Shown: positions 50,554 to 58,467 of the stretch, piece after piece
Layout of the letters: each line of letters opens with the position of its first letter
Position numbering within the stretch: the first letter of the stretch is position 1
Program-made: the position numbers and the translations under genes
Notes under the pieces: generated by a model
The model's input: the letters and a program-made list of their open reading frames with translations, nothing else
What the model was told of the DNA's origin: nothing
The model's database searches: none
Source: Rhodococcus sp. Z13
GTDB lineage: Bacteria > Actinomycetota > Actinomycetes > Mycobacteriales > Mycobacteriaceae
DNA: 64,000 nucleotides
Assembly (NCBI RefSeq): GCF_025837095.1
Contig: NZ_CP107551.1
Span: forward strand, 3,962,668-4,026,667
Direction: 5' to 3'

Positions 50554-51672
50554 ATGATCGGTCCGAGTGGCACGGCAGGGGTGGACGCGCTGGCCCTGCA
50601 CATGAGCGACGGACTGGTCGACGCCCGGGCATCGGCATGGTTCTTCCTCATCGCCGTCATCGGCGTCGGCATCGCCGTCTGGTACGCCCGCAGCGATCTC
50701 GACAAGCGGTCGGTTCCGACCGCGGCGCTGGTCACCGCGCTGGTCTTCGCACTGCAGGTGGTCGACGTGCCGGTGCTGCCCGACGTCAGCGGGCACGTGG
50801 TGGGGGCCGCGCTCGCGGCGATCCTGCTCGGCCCGTTCGTGGGCGCGCTCGCGGTGACGCTGGTGCTCGTCGTGCAGGCCTTCGTCTTCGCCGACGGCGG
50901 CCTGTCCGCCCTGGGTTCCAACGTCACCAACATGGTGCTGATCGCCGTCGCCGCGGCGTTCCTCACCGCCACGGCCCTGCGCGCCCTGCTCGAGCACCGG
51001 CGCGTGCGGTCCGGGGCGCTCGTCCTGGGCCCGGCCTCGTTCGCGGCGGGATTCGTCTCGGTGCTCGCGGCGGTGACGGGTTTCGTCGTCGAATACGCCC
51101 TGGGCGGTTCCACGGCGGTGCCGTTGTCGAACATCGGGTTCCTGTACGCCACCCACGTGCCGGTGGGTCTCGTCGAGGGGGTCGTGACGGCCGCGCTGGT
51201 TCTCGCCGTCGCGCGGGTCTCGCCGGAATCCGTGTACCTCACCCGGATGCCCGTCAACCCGCTCGACCCCGACGCATCCCCCGCCCCGCGACCCCGGCCC
51301 CGTTCGCGCGGCGCCCTGTTCGTCGGGCTGGGGTTCACGACGCTGATCGTGGCCGGGATCGTCGCACCCCTCGCCGTCGACTGGCCGGGCGCTCTGGAGG
51401 TCACCACCACGCGCGGATGCGAGACGGGCACCCTGCCCGGCGACATCACCGGCGAGTGCATGGCCGAGGACGTCGAGGAACACAGCCTCGCCGACGGTCC
51501 CCTCGCCGGTTACGCGATCGACGGCCGGTCCGGTTCGACGGGCATCGCCACGGTGCTCGGCGCGCTGGGCACCTTCGTCCTGGCGAGCGTATGCTTCCGC
51601 GCGCTCGTCGCACGGCCGGTGGTCACCACACCGTCGCGCTCGGATTCTCCTCGAACCGCCTCGGCAGGCTGA
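50554..51672 (+). CDS. CbiM-like cobalt/nickel ECF permease with CbiN/PDGLE-like C-terminal domain
   Basis: A 372-residue membrane protein. The N-terminal part (about residues 16-230) is CbiM-like: LHMSDGLVDARASAWFF, then VPVLPDVSGHVVGAALAAILLGPFVGAL and FVFADGGLSALGSNVTNM, all metal-site segments of NikM/CbiM. A second part (about 255-350) has a TM helix, a Cys-containing external loop and a final TM helix, like CbiN/PDGLE proteins. It would be the substrate-specific part of a Ni/Co importer. No ATPase or T subunit is adjacent. The Met-His expected at the very N-terminus is internal here, and the residue before His is Leu (CTG). Confidence 0.82.
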   Translation: MIGPSGTAGVDALALHMSDGLVDARASAWFFLIAVIGVGIAVWYARSDLDKRSVPTAALVTALVFALQVVDVPVLPDVSGHVVGAALAAILLGPFVGALAVTLVLVVQAFVFADGGLSALGSNVTNMVLIAVAAAFLTATALRALLEHRRVRSGALVLGPASFAAGFVSVLAAVTGFVVEYALGGSTAVPLSNIGFLYATHVPVGLVEGVVTAALVLAVARVSPESVYLTRMPVNPLDPDASPAPRPRPRSRGALFVGLGFTTLIVAGIVAPLAVDWPGALEVTTTRGCETGTLPGDITGECMAEDVEEHSLADGPLAGYAIDGRSGSTGIATVLGALGTFVLASVCFRALVARPVVTTPSRSDSPRTASAG

Positions 51673-53319: not shown

Positions 53320-53940
53320 TCAGGCCGCGGAGTCGGAGAGGTGCGCATCCACCAGCGCCGCGGCCATCTCCCTGCCGAGCCGGATCGGTTCGATCGAGTG
53401 CTCGAACTTCGATCCCGCGAGGGCACCGTCGTAGATCAACTGCAGCCGGCCGGCGAGAGCCTCGGCGTCGGGCACCCCGGCGAGGGCGAGCAGTTCGGTC
53501 AGGGTCGAGTACAGCCACTCCCGGTGCGCCAGCACCGGTTCTATGCGTTCCTGCGGGAATTCCGTTGCTGCGTTGGCATATTGGCATCCGCGGAAGTTCT
53601 TGCGCGGCGCCGACCTCATCGCGAGGTCGAAGAAGGTGAGGATCTTCTCGACCGGATCGTCGACGTCCTCGACGGCGGCGTTCCACCGCTCGCGGTCACG
53701 GCGGTCGAGGTCCTCGAGATAGGCCAGCACCAGTGCGTCTTTCGAGCCGTACGACGAGTAGAGGCTCGCGCGCGCCACTCCCGCCTCGGCGAGGATGCGG
53801 TCGACGCCCACCGCCCGGATGCCGTGCTCGGCGAACAGGGCGCTCGCGGTCTCCAGCAGGCGCTGCGCGGGGGACGGCCGGGCAGCGCGGCCCGACGCGG
53901 GAGCGGAGGTTTCGACGGAGGTGTCGGCGATCGTACGCAC
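53320..53940 (-). CDS. TetR/AcrR family regulator
   Basis: A 206-residue repressor starting GTG. The helix-turn-helix is LFAEHGIRAVGVDRILAEAGVARASLYSSYGSKDALVLAYL (about residues 34-75). The C-terminal domain contains RKNFRGCQYANAATEF, a pattern common in regulators of redox or electrophile responses, where the Cys may be functional. It is divergent from the leader-peptide operon, and an 18-base dyad between them is the probable shared operator. It may therefore control the sulfur-linked operon at 54.0-58.5 kb. Confidence 0.87.
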   Translation of the reverse strand: MRTIADTSVETSAPASGRAARPSPAQRLLETASALFAEHGIRAVGVDRILAEAGVARASLYSSYGSKDALVLAYLEDLDRRDRERWNAAVEDVDDPVEKILTFFDLAMRSAPRKNFRGCQYANAATEFPQERIEPVLAHREWLYSTLTELLALAGVPDAEALAGRLQLIYDGALAGSKFEHSIEPIRLGREMAAALVDAHLSDSAA

Positions 53941-53965: not shown

Positions 53966-53996
53966 ATAGACAGACCGTTCTATTCACATGTACCGT
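53966..53996 (+). promoter_or_regulatory. TetR operator and leaderless promoter of the sulfur operon
   Basis: ATAGACAGACCGTTCTAT (53966-53983) is an imperfect dyad (ATAGA...TCTAT). The -10 TACCGT (53991-53996) is followed by seven bases and the GTG of the leader peptide at 54004, so transcription should begin at that codon. The dyad then covers about -38 to -21, overlapping the -35. Confidence 0.6.
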
Positions 53997-54003
53997 GGGT
54001 CGC

Positions 54004-54087
54004 GTGACGCACAGCCTTCTGACTCGCCGCCTGCACGTGGATCTCGTGCGGGTCGCGACCGCTGTTTGTCGTCGCTGTCACAGCTGA
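54004..54087 (+). CDS. Cysteine-containing leader peptide (attenuator uORF)
   Basis: GTG at 54004 encodes a 27-residue peptide whose core LLTRRLHVDLVRVATAVCRRCHS matches the LLTRRxHVDLxRVxSALCR pattern of actinobacterial leader peptides found before sulfur-metabolism genes. Two Cys codons (54067-54069 and 54076-54078) lie close to the stop. In mycobacteria, leaderless polycysteine uORFs work as cysteine-responsive attenuators. Downstream, GGGCAC (54118-54123) can pair either with GTGCC (54104-54108) or with GTGCCC (54184-54189) beside the next start codon, a plausible ribosome-site switch (inference). Confidence 0.75.
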   Translation: MTHSLLTRRLHVDLVRVATAVCRRCHS

Positions 54088-54191
54088 CCGGTCCCGCCCA
54101 CACGTGCCGTGACCCCGGGGCACATCTGCGCCTCGGACCACCCCACCGGACCGGTCCACAGTTCCCACCATGCTTCTCGGAAGGTGCCCTC

Positions 54192-54707
54192 ATGTCGCTC
54201 TACCTCTACGAACTCGTGCCCGCCGAGGGCCAGGCCTCGGCTGCCATCAAGGCGTTCGACGAGGCCGTCACCGCTGCCGGCGGTGAGCTCATCGAGTCGC
54301 AGGTGACCACCGGCGGCACCCGCGTCTTCGCCATCGCCGAGTTCGAGTCCTGCCGCGCGCCGCAGCTCGAGGCCGCCGCCCTCGACGTCGCGGAGATCAC
54401 CGGCCCCGACCAGGTCCGCCTCGTCGGCGCCGACCTGGACCAGATCAAGGCCACCCGCCCCGAGGCCGGTTATCTCGTCGAGTGGGACATCCCCGACACC
54501 ATCGACATGGAGACCTACCTCGCCCGCAAGAAGGCGAACTCGCCGAAGTACGCGGACGTTCCGGAGGTCACCTTCCTGCGCACCTATGTCCGCGAGGACA
54601 TGGACAAGTGCCTGTGCTTCTACAACGCCCCCGACGAGGCCGCCGTCGTGCGTGCCCGCGAGGTCGTCAGCACCCCCATCGACCGTCTCCACCAGCTCGA
54701 AGGATAA
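54192..54707 (+). CDS. DUF4242-domain protein
   Basis: A 171-residue cytoplasmic protein. It begins MSLYLYELVPAEGQASAAIKAF. The C-terminal half, VTFLRTYVREDMDKCLCFYNAPDEAAVVRA, is the DUF4242 ferredoxin-like fold; some members bind nickel (for example Streptomyces SCO4226). The two halves may be duplicated ferredoxin-like units. It contains a CLC motif near residue 138. It is the first structural gene after the leader peptide and is followed seven bases later by a flavoprotein gene. Its role in the operon is unknown. Confidence 0.75.
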   Translation: MSLYLYELVPAEGQASAAIKAFDEAVTAAGGELIESQVTTGGTRVFAIAEFESCRAPQLEAAALDVAEITGPDQVRLVGADLDQIKATRPEAGYLVEWDIPDTIDMETYLARKKANSPKYADVPEVTFLRTYVREDMDKCLCFYNAPDEAAVVRAREVVSTPIDRLHQLEG

Positions 54708-54714
54708 GAACCGG

Positions 54715-55764
54715 ATGACCGCGGCCATGGAACGAACGACCGAGGAGCAGCGCGCGGCGATCGCCGAATTCGTGCGCGATCGTGCCGCCGCTCTCGATCG
54801 GGGCGAGACCGATATCCGCACCGACCTCGCCTGTATCGGCGAGGCGGGCCTGATCGCCCGTGGACTCGGTGGGGAGTGTCTCGACGACATGGTCGCGGTC
54901 GTCGACGAGGTGGCCGCGGAATCGCTCACCGTCGGGTTCTCCCTGTGGGCGCAGCGCATGGCGCTCGAATACATCGATCGCGCACCGCAGGTCCTCCGCG
55001 ACCTCTACCGGGACGAGCTGGCCTCCGGCCGCACGGTCGGGGTCACCGCGATGGCCGCCGCACTCAAGCACCTGGCGGGTCTCGGCGAATTGCCGTTGCT
55101 CGCCGAGCACACCGACGACGGGATCACGGTCACCGGCCCGATCCACTGGGCGTCCAACGTCTTTCCGGAATCACTGATCGTGTTCCCGGCGCGCACCGCG
55201 GACGGTGGCCGTCTCGTCGCCGTGGTCCGCGCCGACGCACCGGGCATCACCATCGCCCCGTCGCCGGAACTGCTCGCGCTGGGCGCCACCTCGTCGACCT
55301 CCCTGAAGTTCGACGGAGTGCGGATTCCCCGCTCGCACATCCTCACCGAGGATCTCCCCGCCTTCTGCGGCACGATCCGCCCGACCTTCCTGCTGCTGCA
55401 GACCTCGTTCTGCTCGGGCATCACCCGTGCCTCGCTCGCCGAGGCCGGGTCGCGGCTGCACGGCCTCGGCGAGCAGTTCACCGGTGAGTACGAACTCGTT
55501 CGGGCACAGTACGATTCGCTGCGCGAGCGGCTCTACCGGTTCGCGGCCGACCCGAGTGCCGTGCCGCCGGTGGAGTTCGTGCGCCTGCGGCTCGACGGGT
55601 CGATCGTCGCCGTCGCCGCGACCCGCCTGGAGGCGACGCTGCGCGGCGGTGCCGGCTACGCCTCGGCCAGCGCCACCAACCGGCGGTTCCGCGAGGCCGC
55701 CTTCCTGCCCGTCCAGTCGCCCTCGGAAGGACAGTTGCGGTGGGAACTGTCGCAGTACGAATAG
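54715..55764 (+). CDS. Acyl-CoA-dehydrogenase-like flavoprotein
   Basis: A 349-residue protein, shorter than the usual 380-400 of the family. It has the beta domain and C-terminal helices (LAGLGELPLLAEHTDDGITVTGPIHWASNVFPES, LKFDGVRIPRSHIL) but no clear catalytic Glu or C-terminal acyl-CoA signature. It may belong to the flavin-dependent monooxygenase branch (DszC/SfnB-like) that releases sulfur from organosulfur compounds. The cysteine leader and the sulfonate-type transporter support that reading. ATG 54715 follows AAGGA; ATG 54727 is an alternative. Its last 25 bases overlap the ABC ATPase gene. Confidence 0.7.
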   Translation: MTAAMERTTEEQRAAIAEFVRDRAAALDRGETDIRTDLACIGEAGLIARGLGGECLDDMVAVVDEVAAESLTVGFSLWAQRMALEYIDRAPQVLRDLYRDELASGRTVGVTAMAAALKHLAGLGELPLLAEHTDDGITVTGPIHWASNVFPESLIVFPARTADGGRLVAVVRADAPGITIAPSPELLALGATSSTSLKFDGVRIPRSHILTEDLPAFCGTIRPTFLLLQTSFCSGITRASLAEAGSRLHGLGEQFTGEYELVRAQYDSLRERLYRFAADPSAVPPVEFVRLRLDGSIVAVAATRLEATLRGGAGYASASATNRRFREAAFLPVQSPSEGQLRWELSQYE

Positions 55765-56477
55765 CCGACGGCTACAAGAGTTTCGCCGGTCGCCGCGATC
55801 CGGTTCTGCGAGGGGTGGACCTGGACATCGCGACCGGCGAATTCCTCGTGCTGCTCGGCAGCAGCGGTAGCGGCAAGTCCACCCTGCTCCGGATCGTCGC
55901 GGGCCTCGACCGCCTCGACCGCGGCTCGGTCGACTGGCCCGACACCGAGGGCGACAACCACCCCCACACCGGGGTGGTCTTCCAGCAGCCGTTCCTCATG
56001 CCGTGGCTGACGGTGCGCGAGAACATCGCGTTCGGTGGACGTTTCGCCGCGCACCGCGAGCGCTTCGACACCGCCTACGCCGATTCGCTCCTCGAGCGCT
56101 TCGGCCTGTCGTCGCTGGCCGGTTACTATCCCGACCAGTTGTCGGGCGGCCAAGCCCAGCGGGTCGCCGTGATCCGCGCCGTCGCGGTACGGCCGCGGCT
56201 GCTGCTGCTCGACGAGCCGTTCAGCGCCCTCGATCCGGCAACTCGATCCGATCTGCGGTCCTGGCTCGGGGAACTCGCGCGCGGTCTCGGCTTCACCACC
56301 GTGCTCGTCACCCACGACATCGACGAGGCCCTCGAACTCGGCGACCGGATCGCACTGTTCGGCAGCGGTGCGGTGCAACAGGAATGGCGGCTCGCCGAAC
56401 TGCCCGACGTCGAGCGCGACGGTCTGCGTACGCAGATCCTGGCGCACTACCGCGATTCGTCGCTGTCGCCGACATGA
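55740..56477 (+). CDS. ABC transporter ATPase (SsuB/TauB-like)
   Basis: A 245-residue ATPase: Walker A LLGSSGSGKSTLLRIVAG, Q-loop VFQQPFLMPWLTVRENIAFG, signature LSGGQAQR, Walker B LLLLDEPFSALD, H-loop VLVTHDIDEAL. The PWxTVxEN stretch after the Q-loop is typical of nitrate/sulfonate/taurine importers. It starts at GTG 55740, inside the preceding gene, and its stop overlaps the next ATG, so it is tightly coupled. Substrate class: small organic sulfonates or related anions (inferred from context). Confidence 0.9.
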   Translation: MGTVAVRIADGYKSFAGRRDPVLRGVDLDIATGEFLVLLGSSGSGKSTLLRIVAGLDRLDRGSVDWPDTEGDNHPHTGVVFQQPFLMPWLTVRENIAFGGRFAAHRERFDTAYADSLLERFGLSSLAGYYPDQLSGGQAQRVAVIRAVAVRPRLLLLDEPFSALDPATRSDLRSWLGELARGLGFTTVLVTHDIDEALELGDRIALFGSGAVQQEWRLAELPDVERDGLRTQILAHYRDSSLSPT

Positions 56478-57649
56478 CGGGTGGACCCCTCATCAGCCGC
56501 CGCACCCTGATACGCGGCGCTCTCGGTCTCGCCGCGGCCGGCGGGGTCGCCGGTGTCGTCGACCTGGCGCGCACCGCGACGGCCGACCGCACCAACCGGA
56601 CGGGGCAGCTGCGTATCGGTTACCTGCCGATCACCGACGCGGCGCCGCTGCTCGTCGCGCACGGCTCCGGTCTGTATCCGCAGGGGATCGTCGACGGCGC
56701 GAAGCCCGTGCTCTTCCGCAGCTGGGCGTCGCTGGCGGAGGCGTTCGTCAGCCGCCGCGTCGACGTGGTGCACCTGCTCATGCCGATGGCCGTCCAATTG
56801 CGCTACAGCCTGGGCAGTTCCGTGCGCATCCTCGGCTGGAACCACACCAACGGCTCGGCGCTGACGGTCGCCCCGCACATCACCGACCCGAGCGATCTGG
56901 CCGGGCAGACGGTGGCGATCCCGTTCTGGTGGTCCATCCACAACATCGCCCTGCAGCAGCTGCTGCGTGCCCACGGCCTCACCCCGGTCGTGCGGGAGGC
57001 CCCGTCGAAGTCCGCCCGCACCGTCGGTCTCGTCGTGATGGGACCGTCCGACATGATCCCGGCGCTGGCCAACGGATCGATCGCGGCATTCACCGTCGCC
57101 GACCCGTTCAACGCCGCCGCGGAGGTCCGCGGTATCGGCCGCATCCACCGTTTCCTCGGCGACGTGTGGCGCGACCACGCGTGCTGCGCGCTGCTCGTGC
57201 ACGAGGAACTCATCGAACGCAATCCCGCGGCGGTGCAGGCGCTCACCGACTCGGTGGTCTCCGCCCAGCTGCAGATCGGCGCCGACCGCCAGGCCGCGGC
57301 CGGGCTGCTGTCGACCGGCGGCTACCTGCCGCAGCCGCTGCCCGCCATCACGAAGGCCCTCACCTATCCCGGCCGGGACGAGGGCACGCGGCACCCGCAG
57401 TGGCAGCCGCAGCGCGTCGGCTACCAGCCGTTCCCCTTCCCGTCCTTCACGGCTGCGCTCATCGAAGCGATGCACGGCACCGTCGTCGACGGCGACACCC
57501 GTTTCCTGTCGCGCCTCGATCCGGCGACCGTGCACCACGACCTCGTCGACGACCGGTTCGTCCGCACGTCCCTGACCCGTGTGCCCGGCACCGACGCCTT
57601 CGGTCTCCCGGCCGATCTCACCCGCACAGAGGAGGTCGATCCCTCGTGA
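56474..57649 (+). CDS. ABC transporter substrate-binding protein (SsuA/TauA-like)
   Basis: A 391-residue exported protein. The N-terminus ISRRTLIRGALGLAAAGGVAGVVDLA is a twin-arginine (Tat) signal. The mature protein is an NMT1/OpuAC-like type II binding fold: LRIGYLPITDAAPLLVAHGSGLYPQG, FVSRRVDVVHLLMPMAVQL, TVAIPFWWSIHNIALQQLLRAHG. The aromatic/His-rich stretch FWWSIHN probably lines the ligand site. Tat export suggests folding before secretion. It is coupled to the ATPase (ATGA) and permease (GTGA) genes. Confidence 0.88.
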   Translation: MTGGPLISRRTLIRGALGLAAAGGVAGVVDLARTATADRTNRTGQLRIGYLPITDAAPLLVAHGSGLYPQGIVDGAKPVLFRSWASLAEAFVSRRVDVVHLLMPMAVQLRYSLGSSVRILGWNHTNGSALTVAPHITDPSDLAGQTVAIPFWWSIHNIALQQLLRAHGLTPVVREAPSKSARTVGLVVMGPSDMIPALANGSIAAFTVADPFNAAAEVRGIGRIHRFLGDVWRDHACCALLVHEELIERNPAAVQALTDSVVSAQLQIGADRQAAAGLLSTGGYLPQPLPAITKALTYPGRDEGTRHPQWQPQRVGYQPFPFPSFTAALIEAMHGTVVDGDTRFLSRLDPATVHHDLVDDRFVRTSLTRVPGTDAFGLPADLTRTEEVDPS

Positions 57650-58467
57650 GCGTCCCCACCGGTACCGTGCCCGCCCCGGCCCGCACCGGCAGGCGACCGT
57701 CCTTCCTGCCCCAGGTCGTGGCGATCGCCGTCGCCGTGGCCCTGTGGTGGCTCGTGACGACCGTCCTCGTCGCCCCCGACTCGATCGTGCGGGACTTCGC
57801 GCCGCAGTACGTCTTCCCCGCGATCGTCGACCTGTTCGCGCGCGGTGTGCTGCTGCCCGACACCCTCGCGAGCCTGTGGCGGCTGCTGGTGGGGCTGCTC
57901 ATCGCAGCGACCGTCGGTATCCCGCTCGGACTGGCGATCGGGCTCAACCCACTCGTCGAACGCGCCACGATGCCGATCGTGCAGTTCCTGCGGATGATCT
58001 CGCCGCTGTCCTGGGCACCGATCGCCGTGGCGCTGTTCGGGATCGGGCATCAGCCGGTGTTCTTCCTCATCGCCGCCGCCGCGGTGTGGCCGATCGTCAT
58101 CAACACCGCCGCCGGGGTGCACGGCATCGACCAGGGCTATCTCATGGTGGCGCGCTCGTTCGGTGCCACCCGACTCGAACTGCTCACCACCGTCGTGCTG
58201 CCCGCCATCCGCGCGCAGGTGCAGACCGGCCTGCGGGTCGGCCTGGGCATCGCGTGGGTGGTGCTGGTGCCGGCCGAGATGCTCGGTGTGCGCTCCGGGC
58301 TCGGCTACCAGATCCTCAACGCCCGCGACCAGCTCGCCTACGACCAGGTCATGGCCGTGATCGTCGTGATCGGCTTCCTCGGTTTCTGGCTCGACTGGGC
58401 GGCCCGGCACCTGCTGCGCGAACGCCGCAAGCCGGTCGCCGTCGAGGAGGCCGACCGGCCGCTGTGA
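57646..58467 (+). CDS. ABC transporter permease (SsuC/TauC-like)
   Basis: A 273-residue inner-membrane permease with about six TM helices. The EAA loop is AAGVHGIDQGYLMVARSFGATRLELLTTVVLPAIRAQVQTGLRVGLGIAWVVLVPAEML, the BPD_transp_1 signature of sulfonate/nitrate importers. GTG 57646 overlaps the binding-protein stop. It is the last gene of the operon; the next gene is convergent and four bases away. Confidence 0.92.
   Translation: MSVPTGTVPAPARTGRRPSFLPQVVAIAVAVALWWLVTTVLVAPDSIVRDFAPQYVFPAIVDLFARGVLLPDTLASLWRLLVGLLIAATVGIPLGLAIGLNPLVERATMPIVQFLRMISPLSWAPIAVALFGIGHQPVFFLIAAAAVWPIVINTAAGVHGIDQGYLMVARSFGATRLELLTTVVLPAIRAQVQTGLRVGLGIAWVVLVPAEMLGVRSGLGYQILNARDQLAYDQVMAVIVVIGFLGFWLDWAARHLLRERRKPVAVEEADRPL

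Follow-up and report, generated by a model that had tools for sequence, protein, structure and literature searches.

We propose that a five-gene operon of the soil bacterium Rhodococcus sp. Z13, identified within a window of 64,000 nucleotides (the whole stretch of DNA analysed here), is probably a cassette for scavenging sulfur when sulfur is limiting, and we note that this general sulfur role has much better support than the single chemical steps discussed below. The cassette was previously known to be sulfur-responsive; its probable control by a cysteine leader together with a TetR-family regulator is a new regulatory variant. The initial annotation had described a TetR-flanked unit of five genes headed by a 27-codon leader with two Cys codons beside its stop, and our analyses agree with it: the Cys residues lie at codons 22 and 25, the TetR gene is divergent from the operon, and the genes for the DUF4242 protein, flavoprotein, ATPase, binding protein and permease form one conserved cassette (Table 1). 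It had also taken the gene combination to be undescribed, which does not stand, given that the same order is found on Synechococcus pANL and the combination recurs in Staphylococcus aureus as SA0165–SA0169.

Table 1. Features of the operon and its control region (coordinates are positions in the window)
Feature	Position	Strand	Evidence
TetR-family regulator gene	53320..53940	-	Divergent from operon; PF00440 1.1e-13
Probable TetR operator TAGACAGACCGTTCTATTCA	53967..53986		Consensus palindrome TAGACAGAnnnnTCTGTCTA
Probable -10 element TACCGT	53991..53996	+	7 nt before leader GTG
Cys leader peptide VTHSLLTRRLHVDLVRVATAVCRRCHS, 27 codons, GTG start	54004..54087	+	NF042934 match and orthologous leaders
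Shine-Dalgarno GGAAGG of first structural gene	54179..54184	+	Read from sequence; kept in orthologues
DUF4242 (SCO4226-like) protein gene	54192..54707	+	PF14026 2.7e-21; invariant Cys140-x-Cys142
Acyl-CoA-dehydrogenase-fold flavoprotein gene	54715..55764	+	AlphaFold model, fold and profile matches; lacks dehydrogenase glutamate
ABC transporter ATPase gene (SsuB/TauB/NrtD class)	55740..56477	+	PF00005 6.7e-30
Tat-type substrate-binding protein gene, NrtA/CmpA/SrpL-like	56474..57649	+	PF13379 2e-39
ABC transporter permease gene	57646..58467	+	PF00528 1.2e-22

Relatives of the cassette

The same five genes occur in Actinobacteria, Bacilli, Cyanobacteria and Thermomicrobia, and the cassette spans at least four phyla. 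In the srp cluster of Synechococcus elongatus pANL (SYNPCC7942_RS13435–RS13455) their order is identical and they immediately follow cysK and a gene for a gamma-glutamyltransferase, with no adjoining TetR gene annotated, and the binding protein is 44% identical to that of Rhodococcus over 398 residues. In literature of 1995 the pANL cluster is said to be controlled by CysR. A sulfur-metabolism cluster is carried by pANL (PMC9239245), and the sulfur genes of pANL are induced by sulfur starvation (PMC8049743). SA0165–SA0169 of S. aureus (NWMN_0115–0119) likewise comprises a DUF4242 gene, a TauB/A/C-like transporter and a flavoprotein gene, but unlike in Rhodococcus the order is DUF4242–B–A–C–flavoprotein, and the CymR repressor takes the place of Cys leader and TetR. 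This operon belongs to the CymR (cysteine) regulon and is repressed 12–34-fold by sulfide (PMC5480029); we assign SA0169 as the flavoprotein because of the gene order (PMC5480029 labels it differently), homology having been checked on a staphylococcal relative, locus L144. Since all five genes are homologous and clustered, the Rhodococcus operon belongs to the DUF4242–flavoprotein–ABC cassette of pANL and S. aureus, and the CymR regulon and the pANL sulfur cluster lend independent support from other phyla to the sulfur-scavenging role first suggested.

Elsewhere the cassette neighbours tauABC-like genes (Nocardia), SAM-riboswitch met genes (one Bacilli genome) or genes for an LLM monooxygenase and a rhodanese (Pseudonocardia). 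The papers on the cassette that we consulted assign neither its substrate nor its chemistry. The sulfur proteome of IGTS8 includes similar transporters (PMC8557817), none of which could be tied to a DUF4242 gene.

Cysteine leader and probable TetR control

The link between the leader and sulfur, also part of the initial annotation, is strengthened by family membership, by orthologues and by genomic context. In a profile search the leader scores 34.6 bits against NF042934 ('putative leader peptide'; cutoff 27). Thirty distinct orthologous leaders, and one more in locus L160 (31 altogether), were found in Rhodococcus, Prescottella, Nocardia and relatives, all with a GTG start; every one of the 30 carries at least one Cys within its last nine codons and 16 carry at least two, an enrichment near the stop that is far beyond chance. 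Most sister leaders in the same genome stand ahead of sulfur genes, the genes downstream of sister leaders encoding a sulfite/nitrite reductase, an FprA-like reductase, DUF4395 with rhodanese, cysteine dioxygenase, a cystine-type ABC transporter and an NtaA/DmoA-like protein. Counting against sulfur scavenging, the leader is missing from most mycobacterial loci that retain the cassette. Small Cys-Cys ORFs upstream of some Kocuria cassettes were considered and dropped as leaders, their conservation being too low.

In 27 of the 30 orthologous leaders TAnnnT lies 6–8 nt 5' of the GTG, and because of this -10 spacing the GTG is probably the transcription start, i.e. the mRNA is predicted to be leaderless. 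A sigma-70 consensus was looked for and not found. The palindrome just upstream of the leader is a probable TetR operator: it occurs at a single site in the whole genome, and it is conserved in the TetR-bearing loci while falling to shuffle level in loci without TetR. The divergent TetR gene itself is retained in Rhodococcus, Nocardia, Prescottella and mycobacterial loci.

The leader resembles the leaderless short ORFs by which mycobacteria respond to cysteine (Canestrari 2020; Ms5788A type; PMC9031893, PMC4633059) in its brevity, terminal Cys codons, probable leaderless start and position ahead of sulfur genes. It differs from them in having fewer Cys codons (one or two in most) and in being paired with a dedicated TetR, and attenuation would operate here by analogy with them. 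The leader of a relative, locus L162, terminates in a run of four Cys. Since no intrinsic terminator was found after the leader, translational attenuation is taken as the probable mode; no relevant Rfam match was found either. Three RNA switch models were considered, namely (a) a 3' arm that masks the Shine-Dalgarno sequence while the ribosome sits at the leader stop codon, (b) a stalled ribosome that frees the Shine-Dalgarno sequence and (c) per-clade alignment folds. Overall, none did better than shuffles and none reached significance: the two fold models gave mean percentiles of 0.59 and 0.53 against dinucleotide shuffles, and the alignment folds gave z values of -0.16, -1.8 and -1.1. Several Rhodococcus leaders rank high in model (a).

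Flavoprotein, importer and DUF4242 protein

The flavoprotein, as modelled by AlphaFold (pLDDT 95), has the overall fold of acyl-CoA dehydrogenases, with a Z of 40 to isovaleryl-CoA dehydrogenase (rmsd 2.2–2.3 over 336–339 residues) and a profile match at E 8.8e-23. The catalytic glutamate was found neither at the C-terminal YEGT nor at the helix-G position: the C-terminal column, placed in the alignment by its residue distance from the conserved R..RE motif, holds Ser335 or Thr, and no conserved carboxylate lies near it across the family. Because this glutamate is missing, a role as desulfurising oxygenase is plausible, a reading weighed down by the score against SfnB (TIGR04022, 23.7 bits; cutoff 430.9), itself a recurrent weak match (24–39 bits). 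The SfnB/DszC-type flavoproteins of organosulfur use share the fold and the tie to sulfur acquisition, but sfnG and dsz partner genes are missing from the cassette; DszC-like entries are not among the best fold matches, from which no exclusion follows. That sulfur is scavenged with the flavoprotein acting instead as a dehydrogenase or desulfinase, on a sulfur compound that resembles a thioester or cysteine, appears unlikely: the top single-sequence PDB match is the cysteine-dehydrogenating ColB1, and the fold matches include 3-sulfinopropionyl-CoA desulfinase, but the family-wide Ser/Thr, with no conserved carboxylate in place of the glutamate, speaks against it and the cassette has no CoA or carrier-protein genes.

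The initial designation of the importer as SsuB/SsuA/SsuC-type holds only as a broad label, the ABC superfamily class being common to SsuABC and TauABC, but the specific Ssu/Tau models all score far under cutoff (for the binding protein, TIGR01728 67.3 against 163.5 and TIGR01729 25.6 against 304), and the operon lacks SsuD and TauD. The binding protein, which carries a twin-arginine-type motif (SRRTLI), has as its top PDB sequence match S. aureus 3un6, and its fold ranks NrtA (Z 38), CmpA (36) and 3un6 (36; rmsd 1.9) above TauA (27) and SsuA (26). In fold it is closer to nitrate/bicarbonate binders and 3un6 than to SsuA/TauA, which weakens the reading of a sulfonate ligand. This ranking, the zinc bound in the 3un6 structure and the derivation of the DUF4242 name from a nickel-binding protein (PMC4186839) would suit a transporter for a sulfur-free anion (nitrate- or bicarbonate-like) or a zinc- or nickel-linked metal chelate, with the Cys leader coupled only to redox/thiol status. 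We consider this decidedly unlikely, given that cysteine/sulfur regulation recurs in three phyla via different regulators, that the crystal zinc may be adventitious and that the DUF4242 protein, although matching the broader PF14026, scores only 14.1 against the nickel-binding SCO4226 equivalog (NF033706; cutoff 125).

K-C-x-C is invariant in the aligned cassette DUF4242 proteins. In related cassettes AhpD-like (CxxC) or OsmC proteins occupy the DUF4242 slot, a replacement that is a new observation here and that suggests a thiol-redox partner. Detoxification under thiol/sulfur stress, in which flavoprotein and Cys-based partner oxidise or reduce electrophilic or disulfide-like sulfur compounds, is very improbable in spite of these AhpD-like and OsmC partners, the RrpB-related redox-type regulator inside many Bacilli cassettes and the peroxiredoxin-like genes close to some loci, considering that sulfide stress represses rather than induces the S. 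aureus operon (PMC5480029), that an importer is an odd component for such a module and that Cys-leader control indicates nutrition.

Proposed mechanism and significance

In the sulfur-scavenging mechanism that we favour, the dedicated TetR repressor would sit on its unique operator overlapping the promoter until released by its ligand, whereupon transcription would start, leaderless, at the leader GTG (as judged from the -10 spacing). Shortage of Cys-tRNA would stall the ribosome at the conserved Cys codons before the leader stop and raise operon expression, probably through translational attenuation, as M. smegmatis relatives suggest. The Tat-exported binding protein and ABC transporter would bring in a small molecule, most probably an organosulfur anion, which the flavoprotein would oxidise, making sulfur available for cysteine synthesis; the DUF4242 protein may assist, via its Cys-x-Cys, in peroxide removal or reduction of a sulfur intermediate.

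More tentatively, and with some doubt, we suggest that the cassette may represent a distinct, phylum-spanning route of organosulfur assimilation (neither Ssu, Tau, Sfn nor Dsz) in which a glutamate-less flavoprotein of acyl-CoA-dehydrogenase fold works with an interchangeable Cys-based partner, the DUF4242 Cys-x-Cys protein, as a substitute for AhpD-like and OsmC proteins, forming a new class of thiol peroxidases or of proteins for sulfur transfer.

Cyanobacteria and staphylococci both link the five genes to sulfur or cysteine status, and in rhodococci and nocardiae the leader provides such a link; since unrelated control systems converge on one cassette, its substrate becomes a sharp and testable question. 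The slot replacement likewise gives this branch of DUF4242 a concrete, testable function. Finally, if the proposed control is correct, one operon, by pairing its substrate-type repressor with a leader that senses cysteine, would be able to check both the presence of the compound and the need for sulfur.

The cassette and its relatives

Leader, five-gene unit and divergently oriented TetR gene are all there, as the initial annotation described them. Its further claim, that the gene combination is undescribed, is refuted: Synechococcus plasmid pANL has the identical gene order, 3' of cysK and a gamma-glutamyltransferase gene, and S. aureus SA0165–SA0169 is the staphylococcal form of the cassette (DUF4242, flavoprotein and ABC transporter genes). 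pANL carries a sulfur-metabolism cluster (PMC9239245), and its srp genes are named from sulfur regulation (PMC8049743). SA0165 is DUF4242 (PMC8158120), SA0166–0168 are the transporter and SA0169 is probably the flavoprotein, given how the genes are ordered in L144, a staphylococcal relative; all five belong to the CymR regulon and are repressed 12–34-fold by sulfide (PMC5480029). Since SA0167 is annotated as similar to SrpL (PMC2697999), the S. aureus and pANL systems are tied together.

The three gene kinds are clustered in nearly all actinobacterial and most Bacilli loci examined, and Thermomicrobium has the cassette in identical gene order. A DUF4242 relative occurs in 13 of 18 genomes of the genus, 47 of 301 of the family and 27 of 399 Bacilli; in the source genome, a complete 4.53 Mb chromosome that is closest to Rhodococcus among named relatives, the gene is single-copy. 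Many Bacilli carry a Cys-containing RrpB-related regulator between transporter and DUF4242 gene (conserved N-terminal Cys, LPCNIAQ, in loci L147, L149–L151, L153 and L159), hinting at redox or thiol control, and SAM-riboswitch methionine genes adjoin one Bacilli cassette. Since Kocuria loci L037 and L046 keep DUF4242 and flavoprotein genes together with the transporter absent, this pair may be the functional core.

Features and their coordinates (G000:C1, chromosome of the source genome; L158, a Bacilli locus)
Feature	Location	Remark
CbiM-CbiN fusion-like protein (cobalt/nickel transport)	window 50554-51672	by eye from sequence
TetR gene	window 53320-53940 (-)	divergent from operon
Putative operator	window 53967-53986	
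Leader	window 54004-54087 (+)	27 codons
Five genes	window 54192-58467 (+)	
Divergent Cys leader pair (L057, L059, L082)	G000:C1 about 423032-424533	WSRRHVDLCRTRSCLCAF and WCRRHVDLCRTASGSCPD, 1.4 kb apart
Cysteine dioxygenase gene (L058)	G000:C1:4424336	preceded by Cys leader
SAM riboswitch	L158:10804-10920	two methionine-biosynthesis genes, divergent from cassette

Proposed leader and TetR control

The proposed link to cysteine through the leader is well founded, considering the family match, the orthologous and sister leaders and the M. smegmatis precedent. In profile searches the leader matches NCBIfam NF042934 ('putative leader peptide') with 34.6 bits, the cutoff being 27, and, below cutoff, NF042933 (Ms5788A type); the leader family is already known. 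Orthologous leaders (30 distinct among relatives, plus one in locus L160) all have a GTG start and Cys close to the stop, with at least two Cys in 16 of the 30; that of L162 ends in AACCRCRCCCC. Codon differences from the window leader, tallied across related sequences and not a phylogenetic test (123 synonymous, 114 nonsynonymous), suggest that it is translated. A TAnnnT box lies 6–8 nt upstream of GTG in 27/30, which, on sequence grounds, is the spacing of leaderless mRNA. No terminator lies 3' of the leader, which would favour translational control, and a search for a specific RNA switch found none. According to passages in PMC9031893 and PMC13236596 citing Canestrari (2020), short leaderless Cys ORFs of M. 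smegmatis attenuate downstream genes in answer to cysteine; such attenuation was predicted in PMC4633059.

Seven further matches in the genome read as leaders. Of the divergent pair, one stands before an NtaA/DmoA-like monooxygenase fragment and the other before a winged-helix regulator; the remaining five lie ahead of DUF4395 and rhodanese, cysteine dioxygenase, a cystine-type ABC transporter, an FprA-like reductase and a sulfite/nitrite reductase. Cysteine dioxygenase, being cysteine-degrading, is at odds with simple derepression under cysteine shortage.

The palindrome TAGACAGAnnnnTCTGTCTA, directly 5' of the -10 box, has one copy in the genome. TetR-bearing loci score 11–16 of 16, mostly above shuffled controls; loci without TetR (Kocuria and others) do not exceed them. 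The local TetR presumably senses substrate or product. Mycobacterial loci retain TetR, operator and cassette, a recognisable leader being mostly missing, and the leader may supply a sulfur-need signal in some lineages, atop TetR control.

Predicted folds and the DUF4242 slot

The binding-protein model (AlphaFold, mean pLDDT 90) is nearest to NrtA (Z 38.2), CmpA (about 36) and zinc-bound S. aureus 3un6 (Z 36.0; lowest rmsd, 1.9), ahead of TauA (Z 27) and SsuA (Z 26), a fold match that does not let the ligand be read. The flavoprotein (AlphaFold, pLDDT 95) has an acyl-CoA-dehydrogenase fold (Z 40), with Ser or Thr across the family at the dehydrogenase glutamate position, as counted off from the R..RE motif, which is conserved. 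No Pfam domain exceeds threshold in the window protein; SfnB is a recurrent sulfur-related weak match.

DUF4242 proteins (45 sequences) share 32 invariant columns, including Cys140 and Cys142 in K-C-x-C, cysteines retained in Synechococcus, Thermomicrobium and Pseudonocardia. In DUF4242-less cassettes with homologous flavoprotein and binding protein (L168–L171, L173, L174), Bartonella, Deinococcus, Roseomonas and Agrobacterium carry an AhpD-like protein with CGFC or CSFC in the slot, and Methylocystis and Corynebacterium an OsmC protein. Thiol-based peroxidases are among the members of both the AhpD and the OsmC/Ohr families, though the OsmC protein of Corynebacterium has a single Cys. Since these proteins occupy the slot, the simplest reading is that DUF4242 would have a similar job, clearing peroxide leaking from the flavoprotein or reducing a sulfur intermediate.

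From the sequence, its conservation, the operator, the cassette and the predicted folds, we infer a ligand class, a chemistry, this DUF4242 role and attenuation: release of TetR would yield a leaderless transcript, Cys-tRNA scarcity would raise expression via the leader, and the compound would be taken in and oxidised, its sulfur entering cysteine synthesis. Rather than an unknown gene combination, this is a widespread, sulfur-responsive, uncharacterised cassette with a lineage-specific control pair.
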